A stretch of DNA of 48,403 bases, taken from the IMG/VR virus record IMGVR_UViG_3300047443_000189, positions 1 to 48,403 of that record; one strand, 5' to 3'. This stretch comes from a virus. Positions 697 through 48,289 of this stretch are shown piece by piece. The stretch's first letter is position 1. Each line of letters starts with the position of its first letter. Made by a program: the position numbers and the translations under genes. The notes beneath the pieces were generated by a model, which saw nothing but the letters and a program-made list of their open reading frames with translations, was not told the origin of the DNA and searched no databases.

Positions 697-786
697 GGAG
701 AGATGCCAGAGTGGCCGAATGGGACGGATTCGAAATCCGTTGTACCTTCACCGGTACCTAGGGTTCGAATCCCTATCTCTCCGCCA
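697..786 (+). tRNA. tRNA-Ser (anticodon CGA)
   Basis: Class II tRNA of 90 nt including encoded CCA. Acceptor arm GGAGAGA (697-703) pairs with TCTCTCC (776-782). The anticodon stem ACGGA/TCCGT (724-728/736-740) encloses the loop TTCGAAA with anticodon CGA at 731-733, reading UCG. A long variable arm is present and the T-arm carries GGTTCGAATCC. The 3' end from 761 is duplicated at the far end of the window, so this gene is the phage attachment site and stays intact after integration. Confidence 0.97.
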
Positions 787-787
787 T
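761..787. repeat. attL core (27-bp direct repeat with attR)
   Basis: The 27 bases here, covering the T-arm, the 3' acceptor strand, CCA and one further T, are repeated exactly at 48167-48193. The sequences differ immediately outside both ends of the match. Together with the neighbouring integrase gene this defines the prophage left end. Confidence 0.93.
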
Positions 788-874: not shown

Positions 875-1189
875 AAAAATGATTGTGTGAGACCGCCCTA
901 GGCCGCTGCCTCGTCAATTGCTCTAATGGCACCTGCACCACTTTCGCAGCTTTGATCGACGGATAATTGGCGGTAGTCGATCAAGGTTAGTTTTCCGAAT
1001 TTAGGCGCGGCATTCTCCAACCTCTTTTGTGCCTATTAGTGATGTTGGCGTGTATTTTGCCTTGAATAAAAATTGTGTGGCTGTTCCATTTGTCTGATGC
1101 GCAACGAAAAAAAACTACTACGCTCCGTGTGTGTCAAACTACATAGCTACGTCATGTACCAGCATTTTTTTCAAGGACAGGAGAGTCAC

Positions 1190-1471
1190 ATGAAGTTCCA
1201 CGACATTTTGTCAGCGCGCTTGCCAGAAATAGGCGAGTCGGTGAAAGAGTGTGTCAATTTGGGAGAATGGTTGCTTTTCAAAACTGAAGCCTCGGGTGAC
1301 CATCCTGAAGCCGCGTTCTATCTCAAGACTGGTACTTCCATTTTTGAGCTGGATGACAACGGTAGGTTGCTGCATGAGGTTTCGCAAGACGCCGAAAAGC
1401 TCGAGATAGACGAATTGTTCTACTTCGCGGACGTTTGTAAGCCGACTTCGCTGAGTAACACCCGCATTTAA
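1190..1471 (+). CDS. Hypothetical 93-aa protein paired with the caspase-like protease
   Basis: Start chosen at 1190 because AGGAG (1179-1183) sits 6 nt upstream; longer in-frame versions lack a ribosome site. The product is a small acidic soluble protein without signal peptide or membrane segment, and its C-terminal half is rich in Asp/Glu (SIFELDDNGR, KLEIDELFYFADVC). I do not recognise a family. It ends 36 nt before the caspase-like gene on the same strand, so the two are probably one transcript. Its role as sensor, inhibitor or substrate of the protease is inference only. Codon use is less GC-biased than the phage structural genes, as for many cargo genes. Confidence 0.75.
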   Translation: MKFHDILSARLPEIGESVKECVNLGEWLLFKTEASGDHPEAAFYLKTGTSIFELDDNGRLLHEVSQDAEKLEIDELFYFADVCKPTSLSNTRI

Positions 1472-1507
1472 GATGATGGAAGCGGCAGCACAGGGATGCC
1501 TACATAA

Positions 1508-2398
1508 ATGAGCTTGATTGGTGGGAGCACGAAGTGGGTGTTGTTTCTATCCGCGCATGCGGACGCTGAGCCCCGCCACATTGTCGATCTTGCATATGGT
1601 GTTCTTTGTTTTGAGCGCGCTGGTGTCAGCATCACGGACATTGCAATCTATATCGACGGAGCAGACCGAGTCTCCATCGAAAACTTCATCAAAATCGGAA
1701 CAAATTCTTCATTCGTCGTGAAGGAATCGAAGGATTTTTTTGTCGATCAAGCCAGCAACGTTCACGAGAATGTTGTCATGTTTGTTACGGGGCATGGCGG
1801 TCCCGACGGGATTGACGCAGCAACGCCGATCACGCCGTACGTTTTGTTAAATTGCTTGAAATCGTCGCCAAAGCTTAAAACCGCAGTGGTTTATCTCGGT
1901 CAATGCTATGCAGGGATTTTCAACTATATTGGGGCAGGGAGTAAGCAGCTAGGTAACGGTAACGTCGATCCTGACGTGATTTTTATCGGTGCGACCAACC
2001 TTCATGAGAGCCTCAGTTCGTCGACGACGGAGACTTTTTTGTCTGGCTCCTTTTCTTGGCCGGCGAACCTTTTCCTACTATTTGCATTCAAGTGGTTTTC
2101 GAATCCTGTTGACGTCGATGGCGACGGTAAATTTACGATTACAGATTCTTACAAATATGCTGGCGTCTATTCGAATGCAGCAAATAAGAACCAAAAGGCA
2201 GCGAGCTTAGCAAAATCTGTAGACCTGCAAGCGGCATGGGTCGCTGCAAGGAATGCCAACCAGGTGAATCCGTCTCCTGCAGCTAAGCTTACAGAAGACG
2301 CTGAATTCACTCGTTATGCATCGCAACTTTCGCTCCTCTACGTTCATCAGGAGTGTTGGATTCTCAATGCTATACCTTCACAGCGTATCGAAGTGTAG
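1508..2398 (+). CDS. Caspase-fold cysteine protease (C13/C14-like)
   Basis: 296 aa with no obvious signal peptide. The sequence shows the hallmarks of the caspase/legumain clan: a hydrophobic strand then His in FVTGHGG (His96), and a second strand ending in the nucleophile in VYLGQCYAG (Cys133). Residues 202-213 (DVDGDGKFTITD) form a canonical EF-hand calcium loop with Asp at loop positions 1, 3, 5 and 12; bacterial C13-like proteins often carry DxNGDGK segments at a similar place. The substrate is unknown. It lies between attL and the integrase, a common site for prophage cargo, behind the 93-aa gene. A role in abortive infection or regulated proteolysis is inference. Only a weak ribosome site (CAGGGA) precedes the start, so translation may depend on the upstream gene. 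Confidence 0.85.
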   Translation: MSLIGGSTKWVLFLSAHADAEPRHIVDLAYGVLCFERAGVSITDIAIYIDGADRVSIENFIKIGTNSSFVVKESKDFFVDQASNVHENVVMFVTGHGGPDGIDAATPITPYVLLNCLKSSPKLKTAVVYLGQCYAGIFNYIGAGSKQLGNGNVDPDVIFIGATNLHESLSSSTTETFLSGSFSWPANLFLLFAFKWFSNPVDVDGDGKFTITDSYKYAGVYSNAANKNQKAASLAKSVDLQAAWVAARNANQVNPSPAAKLTEDAEFTRYASQLSLLYVHQECWILNAIPSQRIEV

Positions 2399-2535: not shown

Positions 2536-3753
2536 CTATTTGTTTCTAAAACCAAGCATTCTCGACACGATACCCGCCATGCTCTTGGTGTCCTTCGGTA
2601 TCCATCTTCCGTAATGCTTTCTCACCATCGTTGTGTCGGCATGTCCAAGCTGCCTAGCCACCCATTCGACCGGTACATAGCTCGATAGCATCTGGCTAGC
2701 GAAGGTATGGCGACATTGATTGGCACCTCGGTGGCGGACTTCCGCCTTTTTTAGATGCGCTGTGAACCAGTTGCTCAACGTTTTCCCACTCCAGAGCAAA
2801 CCACTGGTCGAGCTGCGGAAAAGAAACCTGACCTTCATTTTCTTCGACGAGATGTTGTCTCGCTGGATAACGGTGATCTCTTCCGGGGCCGCCTCCTTAG
2901 CTGCTGCAACAATCTCTCGCATCAATTCAAGTGCAGGGTCTATCAGCTCGATCACTCTTATTCTGGAGCGTTCTTTCGGGACCTTGAATTCGCCCACGAC
3001 CAGCGCACGACGGACCTGTACCAGGCCGGCATCAAGATCGATGTCCTCGACAGCGAGTGCGATGAGTTCGGATAGTGATAGTCCAGCCCAGCAGTTGAAC
3101 TCAATCATCCTGGTATCAGGTCGTCGGTCCGGATCCGCTTTGCCGATCAAATCAATCTCTGTGCGACTGAAGGGGTCGGCGTGTTCAAGGTCAACGTCCG
3201 AGCCGACGTTGCTGATTCGATCCAGTGGGTTGGCTTTCAAGATGCCGTCGCCGAAGGCGTCAGCCCAGACGCCTCGGACGACGGTGAAGATGTCGTTTAC
3301 TGTCTTTGGGGATAGGCCTTGCTTCAGCAGTTGCGCTTGAAACAGTTCGATATCGCTCTTGCTGATGTCAACGATTCGGCGTTTGCCAAACTTGTTTTCG
3401 ACGTGCTTGGCCTTGCTAGCATAGTTAACGACGGTGCTTGAAGCTTTGAGTGCGCGCTGAACCTCCAGCCATCGATCGATTCCTTCCTTCACGGTGCGCT
3501 TGAGAGAAGGTCCTCCGGTACCGGTGAACATTGCTGCCCTGGGAGAGTTGGGAAAGTGGGCCGCATAGTCGAAGCGGCCCTCTTTGATCTCTGCAAGGAT
3601 TGTGCGTCGCTTGTTGTCGGCGTAGGCAATCGCAGCTTTGTTTACCTTCGAGATCCCGTCCAGTGGTTCCCTGCATCGCTGGCCATTGAAGATGAACCAG
3701 ATACGCAACTGTTTGCCGTTCATCTCGACGCCAGTGGGCATCTTGTCAGTCAT
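2536..3753 (-). CDS. int: Tyrosine-recombinase phage integrase
   Basis: 405 aa. An N-terminal arm-binding region (about 1-75) is followed by a SAM-like core-binding domain (about 85-180) and the catalytic domain. Catalytic positions visible are Arg348 in NQCRHTF, His371 in QLGH and the nucleophile Tyr381 in HYGRW. The first Arg of the usual G-x-R-x-x-E-L box is Ser226 (GLSLSEL), and the usual His of HxxR is Asn345. The start at 3753 is preferred over a longer frame because its ATG overlaps the excisionase stop as ATGA. It is the last gene of the leftward early operon and faces attL, as expected for integration into tRNA-Ser. Confidence 0.93.
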   Translation of the reverse strand: MTDKMPTGVEMNGKQLRIWFIFNGQRCREPLDGISKVNKAAIAYADNKRRTILAEIKEGRFDYAAHFPNSPRAAMFTGTGGPSLKRTVKEGIDRWLEVQRALKASSTVVNYASKAKHVENKFGKRRIVDISKSDIELFQAQLLKQGLSPKTVNDIFTVVRGVWADAFGDGILKANPLDRISNVGSDVDLEHADPFSRTEIDLIGKADPDRRPDTRMIEFNCWAGLSLSELIALAVEDIDLDAGLVQVRRALVVGEFKVPKERSRIRVIELIDPALELMREIVAAAKEAAPEEITVIQRDNISSKKMKVRFLFRSSTSGLLWSGKTLSNWFTAHLKKAEVRHRGANQCRHTFASQMLSSYVPVEWVARQLGHADTTMVRKHYGRWIPKDTKSMAGIVSRMLGFRNK

Positions 3754-3965
3754 GGTTGACCTGCCATCCACTTTTCAATTGCTTCCTTGTTGTAAACCAG
3801 CACATTTGCAGGGTCTGTTCGGTAGTGCTTACCCTCCAGCCAAAGTCCGCGAGAGCGGTACTTGCGGACTGCTTCTGTGCTGAGTCCGAATACTGGATAA
3901 AGCAGGTCTTGGCGAAACCAAGCACCTGGTGCTATTTGAAAATCAATTTTTTCTGCAGCGCTCAT
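3750..3965 (-). CDS. Excisionase-like DNA-binding protein
   Basis: 71 aa, winged-helix/MerR-like, resembling the small Xis proteins found next to Pseudomonas prophage integrases (FGLSTEAVRKYRSRGLWLEGKHY, then an aromatic-rich end KEAIEKWMAG). The start at 3965 is set by an ATGA overlap with the methyltransferase stop, and its own stop overlaps the integrase start in the same way, so all three should be translationally coupled. The expected role is to bend attachment-site DNA and favour excision. Confidence 0.8.
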   Translation of the reverse strand: MSAAEKIDFQIAPGAWFRQDLLYPVFGLSTEAVRKYRSRGLWLEGKHYRTDPANVLVYNKEAIEKWMAGQP

Positions 3966-33824: not shown

Positions 33825-33980
33825 TGTTCACGCCCATGCGTCGCCCTGATGACATTTCTTTGGTCCTTCACGGAGTGCCGGGAAAGTCGTTCTTGATCTT
33901 CAAGAACACACCGGGCCGTTAGCTTTGTACCGACCATAGGGCCTGACATTTCCAAGGCCTGTGCGCCGCCATTAAAGTAG

Positions 33981-34009
33981 TTGCAAGCGCTTACAAATTG
34001 TGTTTTAAG
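33981..34009 (+). promoter_or_regulatory. Candidate promoter for the cysteine-rich moron
   Basis: In the 286-bp gap between X and the next gene, TTGCAA (33981-33986) and TTTAAG (34004-34009) are 17 bp apart in an AT-richer stretch. It would give a ~95-nt leader. The match is modest, but the downstream gene also has its own terminator. Nothing else was recognised in the gap. Confidence 0.35.
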
Positions 34010-34110
34010 GGATGACCGCGAGCTGAAGGGTTCGTGGTGTGCTCCTGGAAGGTGCGCTGATCGAGTGAGGCTGTCTCCAGGTCTTTTCGAAAAAATAAAA
34101 GGATTTAGAC

Positions 34111-34674
34111 ATGACGTCTTTTCAAGATATAAAACCTGAGCAAGTCGATGCGCTCAAAAAGCAATCGCAAGCTGCCTTTGACGCACAAATCAAGCGCCAG
34201 CAAGAGGTTGCCAGCGCGAAGCCGGCGCTAAAAGAGGTCCTCGATCAGAAGGTGCACCCGCAATCGTTGTGTGGATGCGGATGCCAGCAGAACATTTGCG
34301 GCTACTTCTCGTTCGAAGGTTGCGGTTGCGGTTGCTATCCTCAGACCGAAACCATCCAGATTAGTGCGTCACCCGCCGATATCGGACCAAATGCTCCTCA
34401 GCAAGGAACCCGAGTGCGGTTCGTCGGCCAGGCGACAGGTGTGGGTACCAATATCAACATTTCCAGTCTCTACCTACAGGGCACCGTGCCTGATGCTGAG
34501 AACCTCATCGGCGTCCCGTTGTCGCTGCAATTGTCGATTAGTCCAGGTTCGCTCACTCTGTACCTTTTTGAAGGGCAGCGCCTGCTGGCCGCACTGGTCC
34601 ATCCCGCGCAGTATGCCGGGAACATTAGTGGGCAGTTCTCCGGCAGTGGAACCGGCTTTTTCCAGCCAGCGTGA
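34111..34674 (+). CDS. Cysteine-rich moron protein of unknown function
   Basis: 187 aa. A charged helical N-terminus (1-50, KQSQAAFDAQIKRQQEVASA) leads to a seven-cysteine cluster (Cys54, 56, 58, 63, 71, 73, 75) made of two CxCxC motifs, able to bind metal or form disulphides. The C-terminal ~100 residues are beta-rich (TRVRFVGQATGVGTNINISSLYL ... LTLYLFEGQRLLAALVHP), barrel- or jelly-roll-like. No signal peptide or membrane helix. It has AAGGA before the ATG, a candidate promoter upstream and a strong terminator downstream, and splits the tail genes X and D, so it is a moron rather than a virion gene. I do not recognise its family. Confidence 0.82.
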   Translation: MTSFQDIKPEQVDALKKQSQAAFDAQIKRQQEVASAKPALKEVLDQKVHPQSLCGCGCQQNICGYFSFEGCGCGCYPQTETIQISASPADIGPNAPQQGTRVRFVGQATGVGTNINISSLYLQGTVPDAENLIGVPLSLQLSISPGSLTLYLFEGQRLLAALVHPAQYAGNISGQFSGSGTGFFQPA

Positions 34675-34715
34675 TGTAGTCGGCCAGAAGTAAACAGCCC
34701 GACGCCGGGCAAGAA

Positions 34716-34746
34716 AGCCCTAGCCTCAAATGCTAGGGCTTTTTTT
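34716..34746 (+). terminator. Strong intrinsic terminator of the moron
   Basis: AGCCCTAGC (34716-34724) and GCTAGGGCT (34732-34740), a perfect 9-bp stem, then seven Ts. It isolates the moron transcript from the tail operon. Confidence 0.92.
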
Positions 34747-34782
34747 GGGGCTCTTTCCCGGTAATCCGTGAAGCACTTTTTT

Positions 34783-37997: not shown

Positions 37998-38660
37998 TCA
38001 AGTGGTTTGCGGATTGTGGATGGAGCCCACCGGGCGGTCGACCTTGAACCACTCGAAAGCCTCAGTCGGTTCCCACTGCAACAGCATTATTTGCTCGGCG
38101 CGCTCTTTCGGTGTCGCCGGATTCATCCATTCCCGAGCCAGTTCGGGATTGAGCGTCACCGGCTGCCAATCGTCAATATCCACCATGCCGCCCTTGCTGT
38201 CGGCTTTGATGAATACAAAGCCGTCATGCTCGTCCGGTTCATGCTCGGCGTTGGGGTACTGGCCTATCGCGGCGCAGAAGATTGGTGCGCGATCCTTCCG
38301 GCGGATCAAATAGGGCTGTTTTTTCGGGCCACCCTCGTCAACCCATTCAAACCAGTTATCGATTGCAATGATCGCCCGATGCGGCTAGATCGCTCTGAAG
38401 AATGGATTGCTGGCGACTCTCTCTACTCGGGCATTGATCGGCGCGGCACGATCCATTGCCCAGGGCGGCTGCCATCCCCAGCGTACCATGTCGGCCCGCA
38501 GAAACTGGCCTTCCTGGTGAAAGAGGGCGAGTTGAGCGGACGGTGCGGCGTTGTGGAGCTCGAAAGGCTGGTCGCCTGCATAGTTGATCAACGCATTGGG
38601 AATGCTGAGCGCCGCGACAAAGTCATGAATGCCTCGGTACTGAGAAAGACGTCCGCACAT
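37998..38660 (-). pseudogene. yedK-like: SRAP (YedK/HMCES-type) protein gene interrupted by an amber codon
   Basis: SRAP proteins bind abasic sites in single-stranded DNA through Cys2. The frame begins MCGRLSQYRG with Cys2 intact, contains PINARVE, and continues past an in-frame TAG (38387-38385) as PHRAIIAIDNWFEWVDEGG, where family members have Trp-Pro-His, so TGG changed to TAG. The C-terminal region that normally has a catalytic His in an HDR motif reads DIDDWQP, so the His is missing as well. Read through, the product is about 220 aa, the normal length. Two independent lesions indicate decay. Confidence 0.85.
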
Positions 38661-39687: not shown

Positions 39688-40113
39688 TTAACAAGTATAG
39701 ATCCACCGCTTATGAATGGGAGTCCCCGGTTGAAGCAGGGTGGCGACCGCGGCCACCAGCTCATCCAGAGACCAGGGCTTACGCAGATAGATCGCGAAAG
39801 GGGGCACCGTCAGGGATCCTTCGTCATAACCAGATGTCAGTATCGCGGCAATGGAAGGCCATTGGCTTTTCACCTTCTCGATGAATTCAGCCCCTTGCAA
39901 TAGTCCAGGTAACCCTTGATCTGCAATCACGAGCGGGCATTCTCCCTGCGTCTCTGATAGGTGTGTGAATGCATCATCGGCGCTTTCGAAACCCAAGAGG
40001 GGAAGGCCGATGTCAGATAAAATTTCCATCATGAACGCGCGTATTGTGGGGTCGCCTTCCACAACGATGACTACGCCTGAGACAGGCAACAGTCGTTTCC
40101 AATGTCGATTCAC
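39688..40113 (-). CDS. Stand-alone response-regulator receiver protein
   Basis: 141 aa from GTG 40113 with GAGGAG 8 nt upstream. Only a receiver domain: acidic pocket Glu19/Asp21 (VVEGDP), phosphoacceptor Asp65 (VIADQGLPG), ILTSGY switch, Lys112 (YLRKPW). No output domain. It could act as a phosphate sink or partner for the histidine kinase 5 kb away in the same arm; the pairing is inference. Confidence 0.85.
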   Translation of the reverse strand: MNRHWKRLLPVSGVVIVVEGDPTIRAFMMEILSDIGLPLLGFESADDAFTHLSETQGECPLVIADQGLPGLLQGAEFIEKVKSQWPSIAAILTSGYDEGSLTVPPFAIYLRKPWSLDELVAAVATLLQPGTPIHKRWIYTC

Positions 40114-40921: not shown

Positions 40922-41137
40922 TTAGCCAATATCGCGTTTCGTCAGTCGGGCCAAACCTTGTTTGATATGGCCGGCATTCTCTCTCATCGTCTCCAGGGCT
41001 CCCCGGACATTTCCGCCTACTTCCCGTGCCCCTTGCTCCTCAACCAGCAGAGTCAATTCCATAATGGCCGCCTCCATTGCCTGCTGGTTTTCGTACAGCC
41101 TGTCCAGTAGATCCGACAGTGAATAATTGCTTGGCAT
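40922..41137 (-). CDS. Hypothetical 71-aa helical protein
   Basis: Starts MPSNYSLSDLLDRLYENQQAMEAAIMEL with AAGGGA upstream; a predicted all-helical acidic protein ending in GALETMRENAGHIKQGLARL. Function unknown. A decayed relative with the same opening (MPNTDLL ... YENQ..LEAAIME) lies at 47340-47542, so the gene family was duplicated within this accessory arm. Confidence 0.75.
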   Translation of the reverse strand: MPSNYSLSDLLDRLYENQQAMEAAIMELTLLVEEQGAREVGGNVRGALETMRENAGHIKQGLARLTKRDIG

Positions 41138-41423
41138 GGTGTCGATCCCTTTCGAGAAAACCCAAGCATAGTACTGGCAGTGCCCATGTGGGGTAGTAAT
41201 TGCAGCTTGCTTGGAAATTTCTACAAAGCGAAGAAGTCGCATCGGATTAGCCAAGAGTGGAGAGATCCAATAGCCGCGATAGGGGCGACGTTCTGGCTGC
41301 CAGCATTACATACGAGGATGTGATCGCGGGTTTTCATCCCGGCCTCTTCTGCTGGTCACCGGAAGGCGACGGTAACTGGCCGAGAAATCCCCCGGCCGAC
41401 CTTTTCAATGTTCAAGTCAGGGT

Positions 41424-43109
41424 TTAACGCGCATGCACGTATGTGCCGGGAGCGGCCTCCATCGGTGGGTGATTCTGATTTCCCAGCCCCAGCAGGGTTT
41501 CGCGTTGCTTACCAGAACGCGCATGAATCCAGCCCAGCCAACCTGGCCACCAGCTGCCATCGTGCTTCTGCGTGTCGAAATACCAGGCACGCGGGTCGGA
41601 TGGCAGTTTGTCATTCTCTAGGTAGCTAGCCTTGAGATTACCTGGCGGATTGAGGATGCTCTGGATATGCCCGCTGTTGGATAGCAGGAAGCGCCGTTCG
41701 CCACCGAGCAGCAGGGTCGAGCGATATACTGCGTCCCAAGGTGTGATGTGGTCGTTGGTACCGGCGATGCTGAAGCTGTCGACCGTGACTTTCTGCAGGT
41801 CAATCGGCATGCCGCAGACCTCCAAGCCGCCAGGCTGCGTGAGCGGATTGAGTTTGACGAAATCCAATAGATCGCTATGCAGGGCGGCCGGTAGGCGAGT
41901 GCTGTCGTTATTCCAGTAGAGAATGTCGAAAGCCGGGGGGGACTTGCCGAGTAGGTAGTTATTGATCCAATAGTTCCAGATCAGGTCATTCGGGCGCATC
42001 CACGCGAAGACCTTGGCCAAGTCGCGGCCATCCAGCACGCCTTGCTGATTGGAGCGGCGCTTGGCGGCTTCCAGGGTTTGCTCATTGATAAACAACATGG
42101 CTGAGTTGTCGATCTGACTGTCCAACAGGCTGACCAGATAGGTTGCGCTAGCGACTTTGTGCAGCTGTCGTTTGGCTTGCAGGTAGCCTTGCAGGGCGGC
42201 GATGCTCAGACCGCCAGCGCAGGCGCCCATCAAATGGGCCTGTTTGCTGCCGCTGATGGCGTGGGTCACATCGAGGGCTTCTTCGATGGCCTGTACGTAA
42301 CGCGATAGGCCCCACTCGCGATGGCGAGCATCAGGGTTGCGCCAGCTGATGATGAACACTTGTAAGCCGTTCTTCAGTGCGTACTGAACGAAACTCTTCT
42401 CCACGCTAAGGTCGAAGATGTAGTACTTGTTGATCTGCGGCGGCACGATTAGCAATGGGCAGGCGTACTGTTTTTCGCTCATGGGCTGGTACTGGATCAG
42501 CTCCAGCAGTTCGTTGCGAAATACCACGGCGCCCGGGGTAATGGCGATATTCTGGCCGACCTCAAAAGCCTGTTTGCTAACCTGGCTGGGCATGCCGCCA
42601 TTGTGCCGCAGGTCGTCGAGCAGATGCCCCATCCCCTTGAGTAGGCTGGCGCCGCCGGTGTTAAACAGCTCCTTGACCGCTAGCGGGTTGAGCGGGCTGT
42701 TGGATGGCGACAGCGCATCGCCGAGTTGAGCCAATATGAAGCGTGCGCGGGCTTGGTCGTCGGCCACCAGATTGCTTTCGTCGACCCAGGCGTTCAGTTG
42801 CTTCTGCCAGGCCAGATAGGTCTGCAGGCTGCGGCGGTAGAAGGGGTTGAAGCGCCAGGATGGGTCCTGGAAGCGCGCATCCTGCATGGGGGAGGGATGT
42901 GACGTATTGCCGAGCAGCACGCGGCCCAGTTGGCCACCAAGTGCTAGAGCATGGCGGGCGCTATGGATCGGCTGTTTGATGCCCTGCAGCGCCAGAGTTC
43001 GCAGCGTGGGGAATAGACTTCGGCCACGTAAACCGAATACTGCGCTTCGTTCTGTCTTAACAATGGACGCGGATTCGGGCAAGGCGCTCGCCGCTGTTTT
43101 TTTTCGCAT
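41424..43109 (-). CDS. phaC: Class II polyhydroxyalkanoate synthase
   Basis: 561 aa, the standard length of Pseudomonas class II PHA synthases. It polymerises (R)-3-hydroxyacyl-CoA into medium-chain PHA at the granule surface. The lipase-like box GACAGG carries Cys297 (standard enzymes: Cys296), with Asp453 (GTNDHITPWDAV) and His481 (SNSGHIQSILNPPG) completing the triad. The N-terminal domain (about 1-90) is present. It follows phaG on the same strand with a 100-bp gap and no terminator, so the two are probably co-transcribed. The usual chromosomal order is phaC1-phaZ-phaC2-phaD-phaF-phaI with phaG elsewhere; a phaG-phaC pair inside a prophage is unlike that. Confidence 0.95.
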   Translation of the reverse strand: MRKKTAASALPESASIVKTERSAVFGLRGRSLFPTLRTLALQGIKQPIHSARHALALGGQLGRVLLGNTSHPSPMQDARFQDPSWRFNPFYRRSLQTYLAWQKQLNAWVDESNLVADDQARARFILAQLGDALSPSNSPLNPLAVKELFNTGGASLLKGMGHLLDDLRHNGGMPSQVSKQAFEVGQNIAITPGAVVFRNELLELIQYQPMSEKQYACPLLIVPPQINKYYIFDLSVEKSFVQYALKNGLQVFIISWRNPDARHREWGLSRYVQAIEEALDVTHAISGSKQAHLMGACAGGLSIAALQGYLQAKRQLHKVASATYLVSLLDSQIDNSAMLFINEQTLEAAKRRSNQQGVLDGRDLAKVFAWMRPNDLIWNYWINNYLLGKSPPAFDILYWNNDSTRLPAALHSDLLDFVKLNPLTQPGGLEVCGMPIDLQKVTVDSFSIAGTNDHITPWDAVYRSTLLLGGERRFLLSNSGHIQSILNPPGNLKASYLENDKLPSDPRAWYFDTQKHDGSWWPGWLGWIHARSGKQRETLLGLGNQNHPPMEAAPGTYVHAR

Positions 43110-43209
43110 GGGCCAAACTCCATCTACGTATTGTCATAGAGCCAAATAGAAAGGACTTGTACCAAAGCGCGCCAAACGGCTGCGCGAAGAATCAACCCAG
43201 AGCTATGCC

Positions 43210-44145
43210 CTAGCGGCGCAAGTGGCTATGCGCCGCACTGTGACTAAAGATACGGTCACTGACTGCGTAGCGGTGCCGGCTGCGCAACGGTGGCGGGCTC
43301 TCCAGTTTGACAAGGCTGGAAACCGGCTGCAGAAAACCCAGCAAAGCCTGCTGGGTATCATGCCAGGCCGTCGGGTGCTCCATATCGAGGAAGTGCCCGG
43401 CGTTCTTGATGGTCTGGAACTGAGCGTGACCGGAATGAGCGGCGAAAAGACGGGCGTCCGCCACCGAGGTGTATTCATCCCATTCGCCGTTGATAAACAG
43501 CATCGGAACTTCGATGGCATCGGCGCAGGAAACGTAGCAGTGAGTGTCCTGAGTCAGCACCTCATTGACGTGAAAATGCATCTGCCGGTATTCGTGTTCG
43601 TCCAGGCTGCTGACATGGCGCTCATTGAAACGCTTGAACAGCGACGGAAGATGTTTGCCGATCGTGCTGTTGATCAAACGCCCGACATTGCGCCGATCGC
43701 AGGCCTGAAGAAAATGCCGGCCGCTCTCCAGATAATCGCGCATCGGTGTGTTGATCCGTGCGGCGAATGAACTGATCACTGCCTTTTCAATTCGTTGCGG
43801 ATGCTGCGCCAGCGCCAGCAAGGTCGCCGCCCCGCCCCAGGAAAAGGACATCACATGCTGCGCGCGAAAGTGCTCGATCAACTCCAACAGTATTTCAGCC
43901 TCGTCTTCCTTGCGGATCGGCTGGTCATGCTGGTTGTGTTGTTTCGATTGCCCGGCGTAGGGCTGATCGTAGAGGACCACATTGAAACGTGGCCGCAGGT
44001 AACGCACCGTTTGAGCAAAAGATGCGGTCGTTGCCAGCGAGCCGTTGACCAGAATAATGGTCTTTTCGGCAGCGGAATTGAGATAGTGCTCGGTATAAAC
44101 CTTGTACTTCTTACCGATCTCGACGATGGCAGTCTTCAGCATCAT
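43210..44145 (-). CDS. phaG: 3-hydroxyacyl-ACP thioesterase/transacylase (PhaG/RhlA family)
   Basis: 311 aa alpha/beta hydrolase. Closely matches PhaG: LVNGSLATTASFAQTVRYLRP, nucleophile Ser102 in SFSWGG, Asp223 in NGEWDEYT and His251 in NAGHFLDME. PhaG supplies 3-hydroxyacyl units from fatty acid synthesis for PHA; RhlA uses similar substrates for rhamnolipid precursors. The VMSFSWGGAATLL and FNERHVSSLDEHEY segments favour PhaG. A GGGAAGAG lies before the ATG. The C-terminal ~30 residues (PPPLRSRHRYAVSDRIF) differ from the usual PhaG tail. The gene partner, phaC, is immediately downstream. Confidence 0.88.
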   Translation of the reverse strand: MMLKTAIVEIGKKYKVYTEHYLNSAAEKTIILVNGSLATTASFAQTVRYLRPRFNVVLYDQPYAGQSKQHNQHDQPIRKEDEAEILLELIEHFRAQHVMSFSWGGAATLLALAQHPQRIEKAVISSFAARINTPMRDYLESGRHFLQACDRRNVGRLINSTIGKHLPSLFKRFNERHVSSLDEHEYRQMHFHVNEVLTQDTHCYVSCADAIEVPMLFINGEWDEYTSVADARLFAAHSGHAQFQTIKNAGHFLDMEHPTAWHDTQQALLGFLQPVSSLVKLESPPPLRSRHRYAVSDRIFSHSAAHSHLRR

Positions 44146-44403
44146 GTCATTCTCTTCCCTGAATAAATTGGACTACGCGCAGGTGAGCGACTGCCCGTAG
44201 GCCATATCGCAGAAAGCAGACCAATTAGTCACTGACTGACCAGAGGTTCAGAGTTAAGCAGGTGATCTTCCACATGCAAGCGCGCAAACAAACTAATCCG
44301 ACGAGCTGTCAGCTATGCCCGTGAAGATGGACTGCCCGACGGCTCGGTGATCGAGTGGTGTGGGCTGAGCCCAGCAGATTTGGGAATGGGGGAAAAATGG
44401 TGA

Positions 44404-44649: not shown

Positions 44650-45777
44650 TTATTGGCAAACAGGTAAAGTCACACGGAAAATCGTGCCGTGCTCCAGCGT
44701 CGACTCGACCTCTATCTTTCCACCATGCCCCTCTACAATTTGAGCTGCTATGAATAATCCAAGCCCCAGACCGGAAGATGCTCCTTGTTCACCCTCGGAG
44801 TACTTGGAATAGCGTCCTTCCGGATCGAAGAGAGTGGGCAATGCACTGGGAGGAATTGGCTCTCCATGATTTTGCACACAAAAGTAGGCGGTGGTGCCAT
44901 CCCCGTTCAATGTGACATTAATTGGACGCTGTAAGTTGCCGTGTCGCACGGCGTTGCCAATGAGATTCGAAAAAACCTGTGCCATGCGTGATGGGTCGTA
45001 CTGGCCTGTTACCGGTTCCGTGTCGGTGAAAATGATATTTGCTTTGGGGTGGGCAACTGTCAGTTCATCCACTACAGATTTGCAAACAGAAGTGAGGTTA
45101 GCGTTTTCAGGTTGTACCGGGATGCCCGTGCCAAGGTTGCAGCGCGCCAGGTCGAGCAAGTCTTGCACCATCTGGTTAGCGCTTTGAACACTTGTAGAAA
45201 TCTGCGCAATTATTTTTTTTCCACGGCTGCCCAGTTCTTCAGTCTGCCTCAACAGATCGGCGCCCAGCATTACTGCGCCCAATGGTGTGCGAAGGTCGTG
45301 GCCCAACACCCCCAAGACTTTTTTTCGGGTTGTATCCACTGCTCGCCCATAAGCAGCAATAGACTCGGCAAGCGCTTGATCTATCGCCTCGTTGAATCGG
45401 ATCATGTCCTCAATCTGATGGTCTCGCTTTGGATATCCTTGGGCCAGCCACAGTCTGAGTACGCTCGACCTGAGGGCGCGATATTCGGAGACTGTCTGTT
45501 CAAGAGTGAAACCAGCAATCAGGCGCGTCAGTGCGTGACTTTCAGCCGCCGATTTTTTCTCGGTTAAAGGCCCGAGCCCCTGGGACTTGTCGATCTGTTG
45601 CTGCAGGGTTTGAGAGGTACGCATATCGAGCGCAACAGCCCTCAAAATATGCTCGGCATCGTTTCTCAGGCCTTGTGAATCCATCGCCGGCATCGAGATA
45701 TCAATAGACCTGGCAAATTCTTCCCACGCTTGCAGAATAAGCTCAAGGTTTTTGAGGATGAAATCTGGAAGTCTCAT
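44650..45777 (-). CDS. Sensor histidine kinase without membrane segments
   Basis: 375 aa. An all-helical N-terminal sensory region (about 1-145, RsbR-like: ILQAWEEFARSI ... LTRLIAGFTLEQTVSEYRALR ... RFNEAIDQALAESI) has no transmembrane helix. His160 lies in LGHDLRTPL (H box), followed by an N box (NLIGNAVRHG) and G boxes (GLGLGLFIAAQIVEGHGG). It should autophosphorylate and signal to a response regulator; the stand-alone receiver at 39688 is the only candidate in the window. Predicted cytoplasmic. Confidence 0.9.
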   Translation of the reverse strand: MRLPDFILKNLELILQAWEEFARSIDISMPAMDSQGLRNDAEHILRAVALDMRTSQTLQQQIDKSQGLGPLTEKKSAAESHALTRLIAGFTLEQTVSEYRALRSSVLRLWLAQGYPKRDHQIEDMIRFNEAIDQALAESIAAYGRAVDTTRKKVLGVLGHDLRTPLGAVMLGADLLRQTEELGSRGKKIIAQISTSVQSANQMVQDLLDLARCNLGTGIPVQPENANLTSVCKSVVDELTVAHPKANIIFTDTEPVTGQYDPSRMAQVFSNLIGNAVRHGNLQRPINVTLNGDGTTAYFCVQNHGEPIPPSALPTLFDPEGRYSKYSEGEQGASSGLGLGLFIAAQIVEGHGGKIEVESTLEHGTIFRVTLPVCQ

Positions 45778-48003: not shown

Positions 48004-48055
48004 TGGTGGTCGGTAGTTTTTAAAGGTGCTTTGCACTGGTTGGTGGTGGGAACCT

Positions 48056-48073
48056 TAGGGCAAAATTAGGGCA
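48056..48073. promoter_or_regulatory. Candidate integrase arm-type sites, right arm
   Basis: TAGGGCA at 48056-48062 and 48067-48073, 11 bp apart and in the same orientation as the pair near attL. Confidence 0.6.
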
Positions 48074-48166
48074 GATTCTGGGCCGCAATAGACCGCAGTA
48101 CGCCTGACACCAGGGACGAGGCCGCTGTATTTTCTGGCCTAGAGCGGTATGCACAGACACCTGAAG

Positions 48167-48193
48167 GGGTTCGAATCCCTATCTCTCCGCCAT
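48167..48193. repeat. attR core (27-bp direct repeat with attL)
   Basis: Exact copy of 761-787, the 3' end of tRNA-Ser without the rest of the gene. The match ends at both sides where phage and host sequences diverge. It closes the 47.4-kb prophage. Confidence 0.93.
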
Positions 48194-48202
48194 ACATAGA
48201 AA

Positions 48203-48234
48203 AGCCCCGTAGATGAGAATCTACGGGGCTTTTT
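48203..48234 (+). terminator. Original host terminator of tRNA-Ser, displaced beyond attR
   Basis: 12-bp stem (48203-48214/48219-48230) followed by TTTTT. It shares 15 bases with the phage terminator at 803-838. Confidence 0.85.
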
Positions 48235-48289
48235 CGTTTGCGCAGCTTTTTCCATCGGGTCACTTTCGCATCCGTCTGAAGGGATCAAC

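Follow-up and report, generated by a model that had tools for sequence, protein, structure and literature searches.

Does a phage carry phaG and phaC as cargo of its own, and what could the two genes add to carbon storage in a host? The question is raised by a complete IMG/VR virus contig, the whole of which, 48,403 bases, is the stretch of DNA analysed here (the window), and in which a preliminary description had placed the genes inside a prophage. The reading that we favour, and think fairly probable, is that a mobile phaG–phaC unit was inserted together with its leader into the right-end bay of a temperate Pseudomonas phage, where it would add to the PHA system of the host, and that this copy of the unit is a recombinant.

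Boundaries and content of the prophage

The features that delimit the element are these:

697–786 (+), host tRNA-Ser(CGA) gene, regenerated at attL (ARAGORN; flank of purC and tRNA matching a Pseudomonas chromosome)
761–787 (+), attL core, the 3′ end of tRNA-Ser (exact repeat)
2536–3771 (−), tyrosine integrase (phrog_1, Pfam Phage_integrase)
10571–38660 (+), phage core: primase/helicase, terminase, portal, head protease, capsid, tail sheath, tape measure, tail, endolysin, spanin and Dam methylase (PHROGs; full-length matches to relatives)
48055–48166, the end also placed at 48186 (+), phage right-end arm adjoining attR (conserved in related phages)
48167–48193 (+), attR core (exact repeat; downstream match to a related chromosome)

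The 27-bp 3′ end of tRNA-Ser is repeated exactly at 761–787 and 48167–48193, and a search across the window found no third copy, on which ground an island in tandem beside the prophage was rejected. The integrase has family members 70–97% identical in virus contigs, and an identical att motif adjoins the related integrase gene at 37 of 80 such virus loci; the phage right end (48055–48186) is kept beside attR at the equivalent place in related phages. On the host side, the left flank (1–787, purC and the tRNA) is 99% identical to the Pseudomonas chromosome of genome G360, so that a G360-like member of the P. fluorescens group is the likely host; no closer donor or host was found among 145 relatives of G360. 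Positions 48167–48239 match the native sequence after tRNA-Ser in the same chromosome (98.6% over 73 bp), and host sequence starts again only after attR, at 48193. Because the att repeats are exact and without a third copy, and the right-end arm still adjoins attR, the phaG–phaC pair, which sits between attL and attR in the manner of accessory (moron) genes, is by position inside the prophage, as had been claimed. The tRNA-Ser locus of G360 itself (L316) has repeated att-like copies about 2.5–2.8 kb apart after the tRNA, which suggests another integrated element there.

These boundaries bear directly on whether the virus record picked up the pair by mistake from the flanking host DNA, an error that does account for the other virus records with PhaG. 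Canonical phaG adjoins tRNA-Gly(CCC), a phage integration site, and virus records of prophages there therefore pick up the gene as flank: two records with PhaG (L347, L348) hold a flanking chromosomal phaG next to this tRNA, and a third (OQ658363.1, L349) holds one beside a Pf-type prophage. Such flanking genes are a trap for auxiliary-gene surveys. Here, however, the pair lies between exact att copies and on the inner side of the right-end arm, host DNA resumes only beyond it, and a third att copy was looked for to the left of 41 kb and not found, so that for this window the explanation is already largely refuted and very improbable. Acinetobacter ‘phage’ records with phbC were rejected as weak, partial matches of 30%.

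The 47.4 kb from att to att are apparently a complete prophage of a temperate tailed phage, in which the core genes having relatives for comparison were matched at full length and a repressor gene is also present (PHROGs). Two features of the element count against the reading favoured above: its length exceeds that of the measured relatives (39.5 kb for one with both att sites, at least 43.4 kb for another), and a stop interrupts the frame of a SRAP-like gene (phrog_1599, 37998–38660, minus strand) that L132 and other relatives have open. Given this length, it is a conjecture that the element is packaged whole. The same large size and interrupted gene fit an account, unlikely though not negligible, in which a one-off insertion put the pair into the resident prophage, possibly a non-mobile one, of a single strain, as a bystander that has never travelled in a particle; the full-length core genes and the two exact att sites speak against it.

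Two intact genes in one unit

The pair consists of two genes on the minus strand, phaG first, 100 bp apart:

43210–44145 (−), phaG, of the 3-hydroxyacyl-ACP thioesterase/transacylase type (identity, motifs)
41424–43109 (−), phaC, class II PHA synthase (TIGR01839; catalytic triad; dN/dS)

PhaC, 561 amino acids in an intact reading frame, matches the class II model TIGR01839 over its full length (residues 1–561) with 983.8 bits, above the cut-off of 855.4 bits, and scores below the cut-off of the class I model. Its catalytic triad (C297, D453, H481) is invariant in 10 aligned synthases from chromosomes and a plasmid. Judged by its sequence it belongs to the class II PHA synthases, and is predicted to polymerise medium-chain (R)-3-hydroxyacyl-CoA. 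PhaG (311 amino acids, also intact) has the alpha/beta hydrolase residues S102, D223 and H251 and the motif H177-x4-D182; S102, H177, D223 and H251 are kept in seven homologues. Each of the ten Pseudomonas genomes checked has a PhaG-type gene, with 59–66% identity to that of the window, the highest value being that of a P. putida genome. The dN/dS ratio is 0.15 for phaC, measured against the plasmid copy described below, and 0.07 for the recombinant segment of phaG, arguing for working enzymes in this lineage. An intact synthase with its full triad, an intact PhaG and their arrangement as one unit, all put forward earlier, are thus borne out.

Cassette edges and the cargo bay

The pair and its surroundings can be divided as follows:

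41256–44377 (−), phaG–phaC cassette of about 3.1 kb (flanks joined in L093 and L162; homology to plasmid and chromosomal units)
40922–41254 (−), small conserved protein, phrog_12397, at the left cassette edge (flank homology stops near 41254)
39688–40113 (−), stand-alone response-regulator receiver, neighbouring cargo (Pfam Response_reg)
44650–45777 (−), RsbRD_N-HisKA-HATPase sensor kinase, neighbouring cargo (domain matches)

In two relatives, L093 and L162, the sequences to the left of 41254 and to the right of about 44378 are only 40–80 bp apart, against 3.1 kb in the window, and homology to plasmid and chromosomal phaG–phaC units spans 41308–44334. The joined flanks of L093 lie about 1.3 kb beyond attR; the DNA directly flanking the cassette is therefore not phage core but accessory DNA of Pseudomonas at large.

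On a larger scale, the pair is positioned between the lysis and Dam genes and attR, a stretch that in related phages holds a Y-family polymerase, an AAA ATPase, a DUF3800 protein, a D12 methylase and an Mrr-like nuclease. An S-type pyocin, an acyltransferase with an SGNH domain and a SIR2-like protein also occur in this bay (respectively L088:16517-17722, L105:13124-15142, L164:13487-14599), and that of L093, read from its sequence, holds a GGDEF/EAL-type regulator, a LysR-type regulator and a short-chain dehydrogenase. By this comparison the right-end region is a cargo bay, variable among related phages. We propose that phaG–phaC, with its own leader, would have entered such a bay in a tailed, temperate phage that uses tRNA-Ser(CGA) of a P. 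fluorescens-group host as its integration site; its position suggests that it would move with the phage. The neighbouring sensor kinase has an 83% identical relative in genome G137, within 10 kb of the phaG of that genome; the idea that the cargo is a syntenic host block including the kinase was dropped, as kinase and PhaG in G137 are separated by 6 kb and their order relative to each other is reversed.

Occurrence of the unit outside phages

The same gene arrangement is found on the 410-kb plasmid of P. mandelii JR-1 (NZ_CP005961.1, 100150–102874) and in the chromosomes of P. fluorescens PS723, P. benzenivorans, P. tumuqii, P. aestuarii and others, where its sites vary. The plasmid unit shares gene order, spacing and leader with that of the window (PhaC 90% and PhaG 82% identical), but it sits among metal-resistance genes, with no phage, and its phaG differs by the recombinant segment described below. 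On this distribution phaG–phaC is a mobile accessory unit of Pseudomonas that is not specific to phages: the proposal of prophage cargo stands in so far as the pair is in a prophage bay, but the pair is no phage invention. The survey of prophages for the pair that had been suggested yielded no second virus record with it in the virus collections searched. This counts against the favoured reading and, with the arrival of the unit on plasmids and chromosomes by other means, is again what the one-off insertion discussed above would lead one to expect.

The PhaG clade of the window is present in 20 of 399 sampled Pseudomonas genomes (approximately 5%), mostly without PhaC. Among 19 further loci of the clade, 18 lack PhaC in the flanks (mostly about 10 kb per side), and in the remaining one PhaC is broken. 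Since most members of the clade are without PhaC, PhaG would have a role of its own, and the closest solved structure to it is that of RhlA (241 bits). It is conceivable, though improbable, that the pair serves lipid or surfactant metabolism, through an RhlA-like activity or the release of free 3-hydroxy acids, more than storage; the full class II PhaC, under constraint, that adjoins PhaG and the 66% identity of PhaG to the PhaG-type gene of the P. putida genome both tell against this. For the phage copy we retain the reading of a unit that adds to PHA storage. A little-noticed mobile phaG–phaC unit is, in any case, common to plasmid, chromosomes and phage.

Mosaic origin of the phage copy

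One segment of phaG has a history different from that of its surroundings:

43322–44192 (−), recombinant segment of phaG (near-identity to a lone chromosomal phaG)

This segment is 96.8% identical, over 873 bp, to the lone phaG of genome G228, which lies between a glutathione S-transferase-like gene and folD, and sliding identity shows plasmid-type cassette sequence on both sides of it. Synonymous divergence (dS) of the segment is 0.085 when it is compared with the lone gene, but 0.64 when it is compared with phaG of the plasmid. The phylogeny of both genes against chromosomal copies that had been called for gives conflicting trees: the place of the window differs between PhaC and PhaG, and its PhaC is nearest to the plasmid copy. 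The phage copy is, from these comparisons, a mosaic of a plasmid-type PhaC and a phaG taken for the most part from a lone chromosomal gene, and recombination would have replaced most of phaG in a plasmid-type cassette. Lone second phaG genes of the P. fluorescens group, such as that of G228, resemble the window gene in 98.5% identity of their products over PhaG residues 1–275 and in a related leader; they differ in having no adjoining phaC and another C-terminal end. Such cargo, the mosaic suggests, recombines with chromosomal paralogues.

The host flank is that of a G360-like genome, but the lone phaG of G360 is only 89–90% identical to that of the window, so the recombinant was probably formed elsewhere and then moved. 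On the evidence of this one locus, the cassette probably arose in a different species before its arrival, which weighs against a pair inserted once into an immobile resident prophage.

A conserved leader

Upstream of phaG is a further conserved element:

44219–44334 (−), non-coding leader upstream of phaG (kept in 21 phaG-clade loci)

Part or whole of this leader is kept in all of these loci, those without phaC included; its core comprises CCTGCTTAA and two TGGTC repeats. It is probably a native regulatory region carried along with the genes, and the pair would therefore be expressible without phage late promoters. Both genes are on the strand opposite to the phage late genes, as expected for expression during lysogeny. 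A search of the minus strand immediately upstream of phaG found no sigma-70-like promoter, which counts against the favoured reading. A sigma-54 promoter there is not claimed, as the pattern GG-N10-GC fits the window and slightly over half of its relatives, but not L004, L005 or L284.

Predicted contribution to host storage

PhaG acts as a thioesterase whose products are free 3-hydroxy acids, so that PhaC depends on a preceding step by a 3-hydroxyacyl-CoA ligase (PMC9049629); no such ligase was seen among the accessory genes examined. With this step absent from the pair, phaG–phaC would rely on a host ligase, and the earlier suggestion that the two genes could by themselves divert carbon into storage does not hold. 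In a lysogen, PhaG would free (R)-3-hydroxy acids from ACP intermediates of fatty acid synthesis, the CoA ligase of the host would activate them, and PhaC would polymerise the activated acids into medium-chain-length PHA, on top of the host pha system. Standard pha genes, which the preliminary description had proposed to look for, are indeed present in the likely hosts, here relatives of the window's own host: these already have phaC1/phaC2, and the Pseudomonas genomes checked for canonical phaG carry one as well. The resident phaC1/phaC2 are a further point against the favoured reading. Given the resident phaC1/phaC2, the prediction is therefore extra or differently timed storage and not a new capacity; the pair, we infer, adds to host PHA synthesis rather than founding it. 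That the phage spreads a self-contained, separately regulated phaG–phaC between species, so that lysogens store more or different polyester (a lysogenic conversion of carbon storage), is a bolder proposal that we regard as doubtful.

Compared with the canonical phaC1-phaZ-phaC2-phaD cluster and its separate phaG, the enzyme classes are shared, PhaG at the identities given above and PhaC with 71–76% identity to one canonical chromosomal synthase and 54–59% to the other. The canonical system differs in being chromosomal, with phaG apart from phaC, and in a PHA cluster that, as is established, has a depolymerase, a regulator and granule proteins (PMC8601165). Pseudomonas genomes have been described with extra class II synthases besides those of the main cluster, and the relevant passages of these sources (PMC8601165, PMC6543543) do not state a phaG–phaC pairing. 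In 2025 phaC was reported as a transcribed auxiliary metabolic gene of phages in PHA mixed cultures (PMC12013262). As in the window, a PHA synthase gene was assigned to phage contigs, with transcripts present in that case, but the calls are metagenomic ones by DRAM-v, and the relevant passages state no phaG pair and do not describe att boundaries. The impression that no described phage carries the pair agrees with the literature searched (mostly outside the subscription journals) and with the virus collections, but phage phaC by itself had already been reported; what appears to be new is the phage-borne phaG–phaC pair. A prophage with such defined bounds offers a concrete case for studying a possible influence of phages on Pseudomonas carbon storage.

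Other genes of the element

Two further features were observed in the element. Compared with phage L088, the window has an insertion of some 0.9 kb (33840–34764), which contains an open reading frame (34111–34674, plus strand) for a protein of 187 amino acids without a family match. A two-gene unit (1073–2398, plus strand) lies between attL and the integrase; it has no PADLOC match, and its second protein (296 amino acids) has a weak match, below the Pfam cut-off, to Peptidase_C13 (caspase-like), with HG and C motifs, which makes the unit a possible defence-type cargo.
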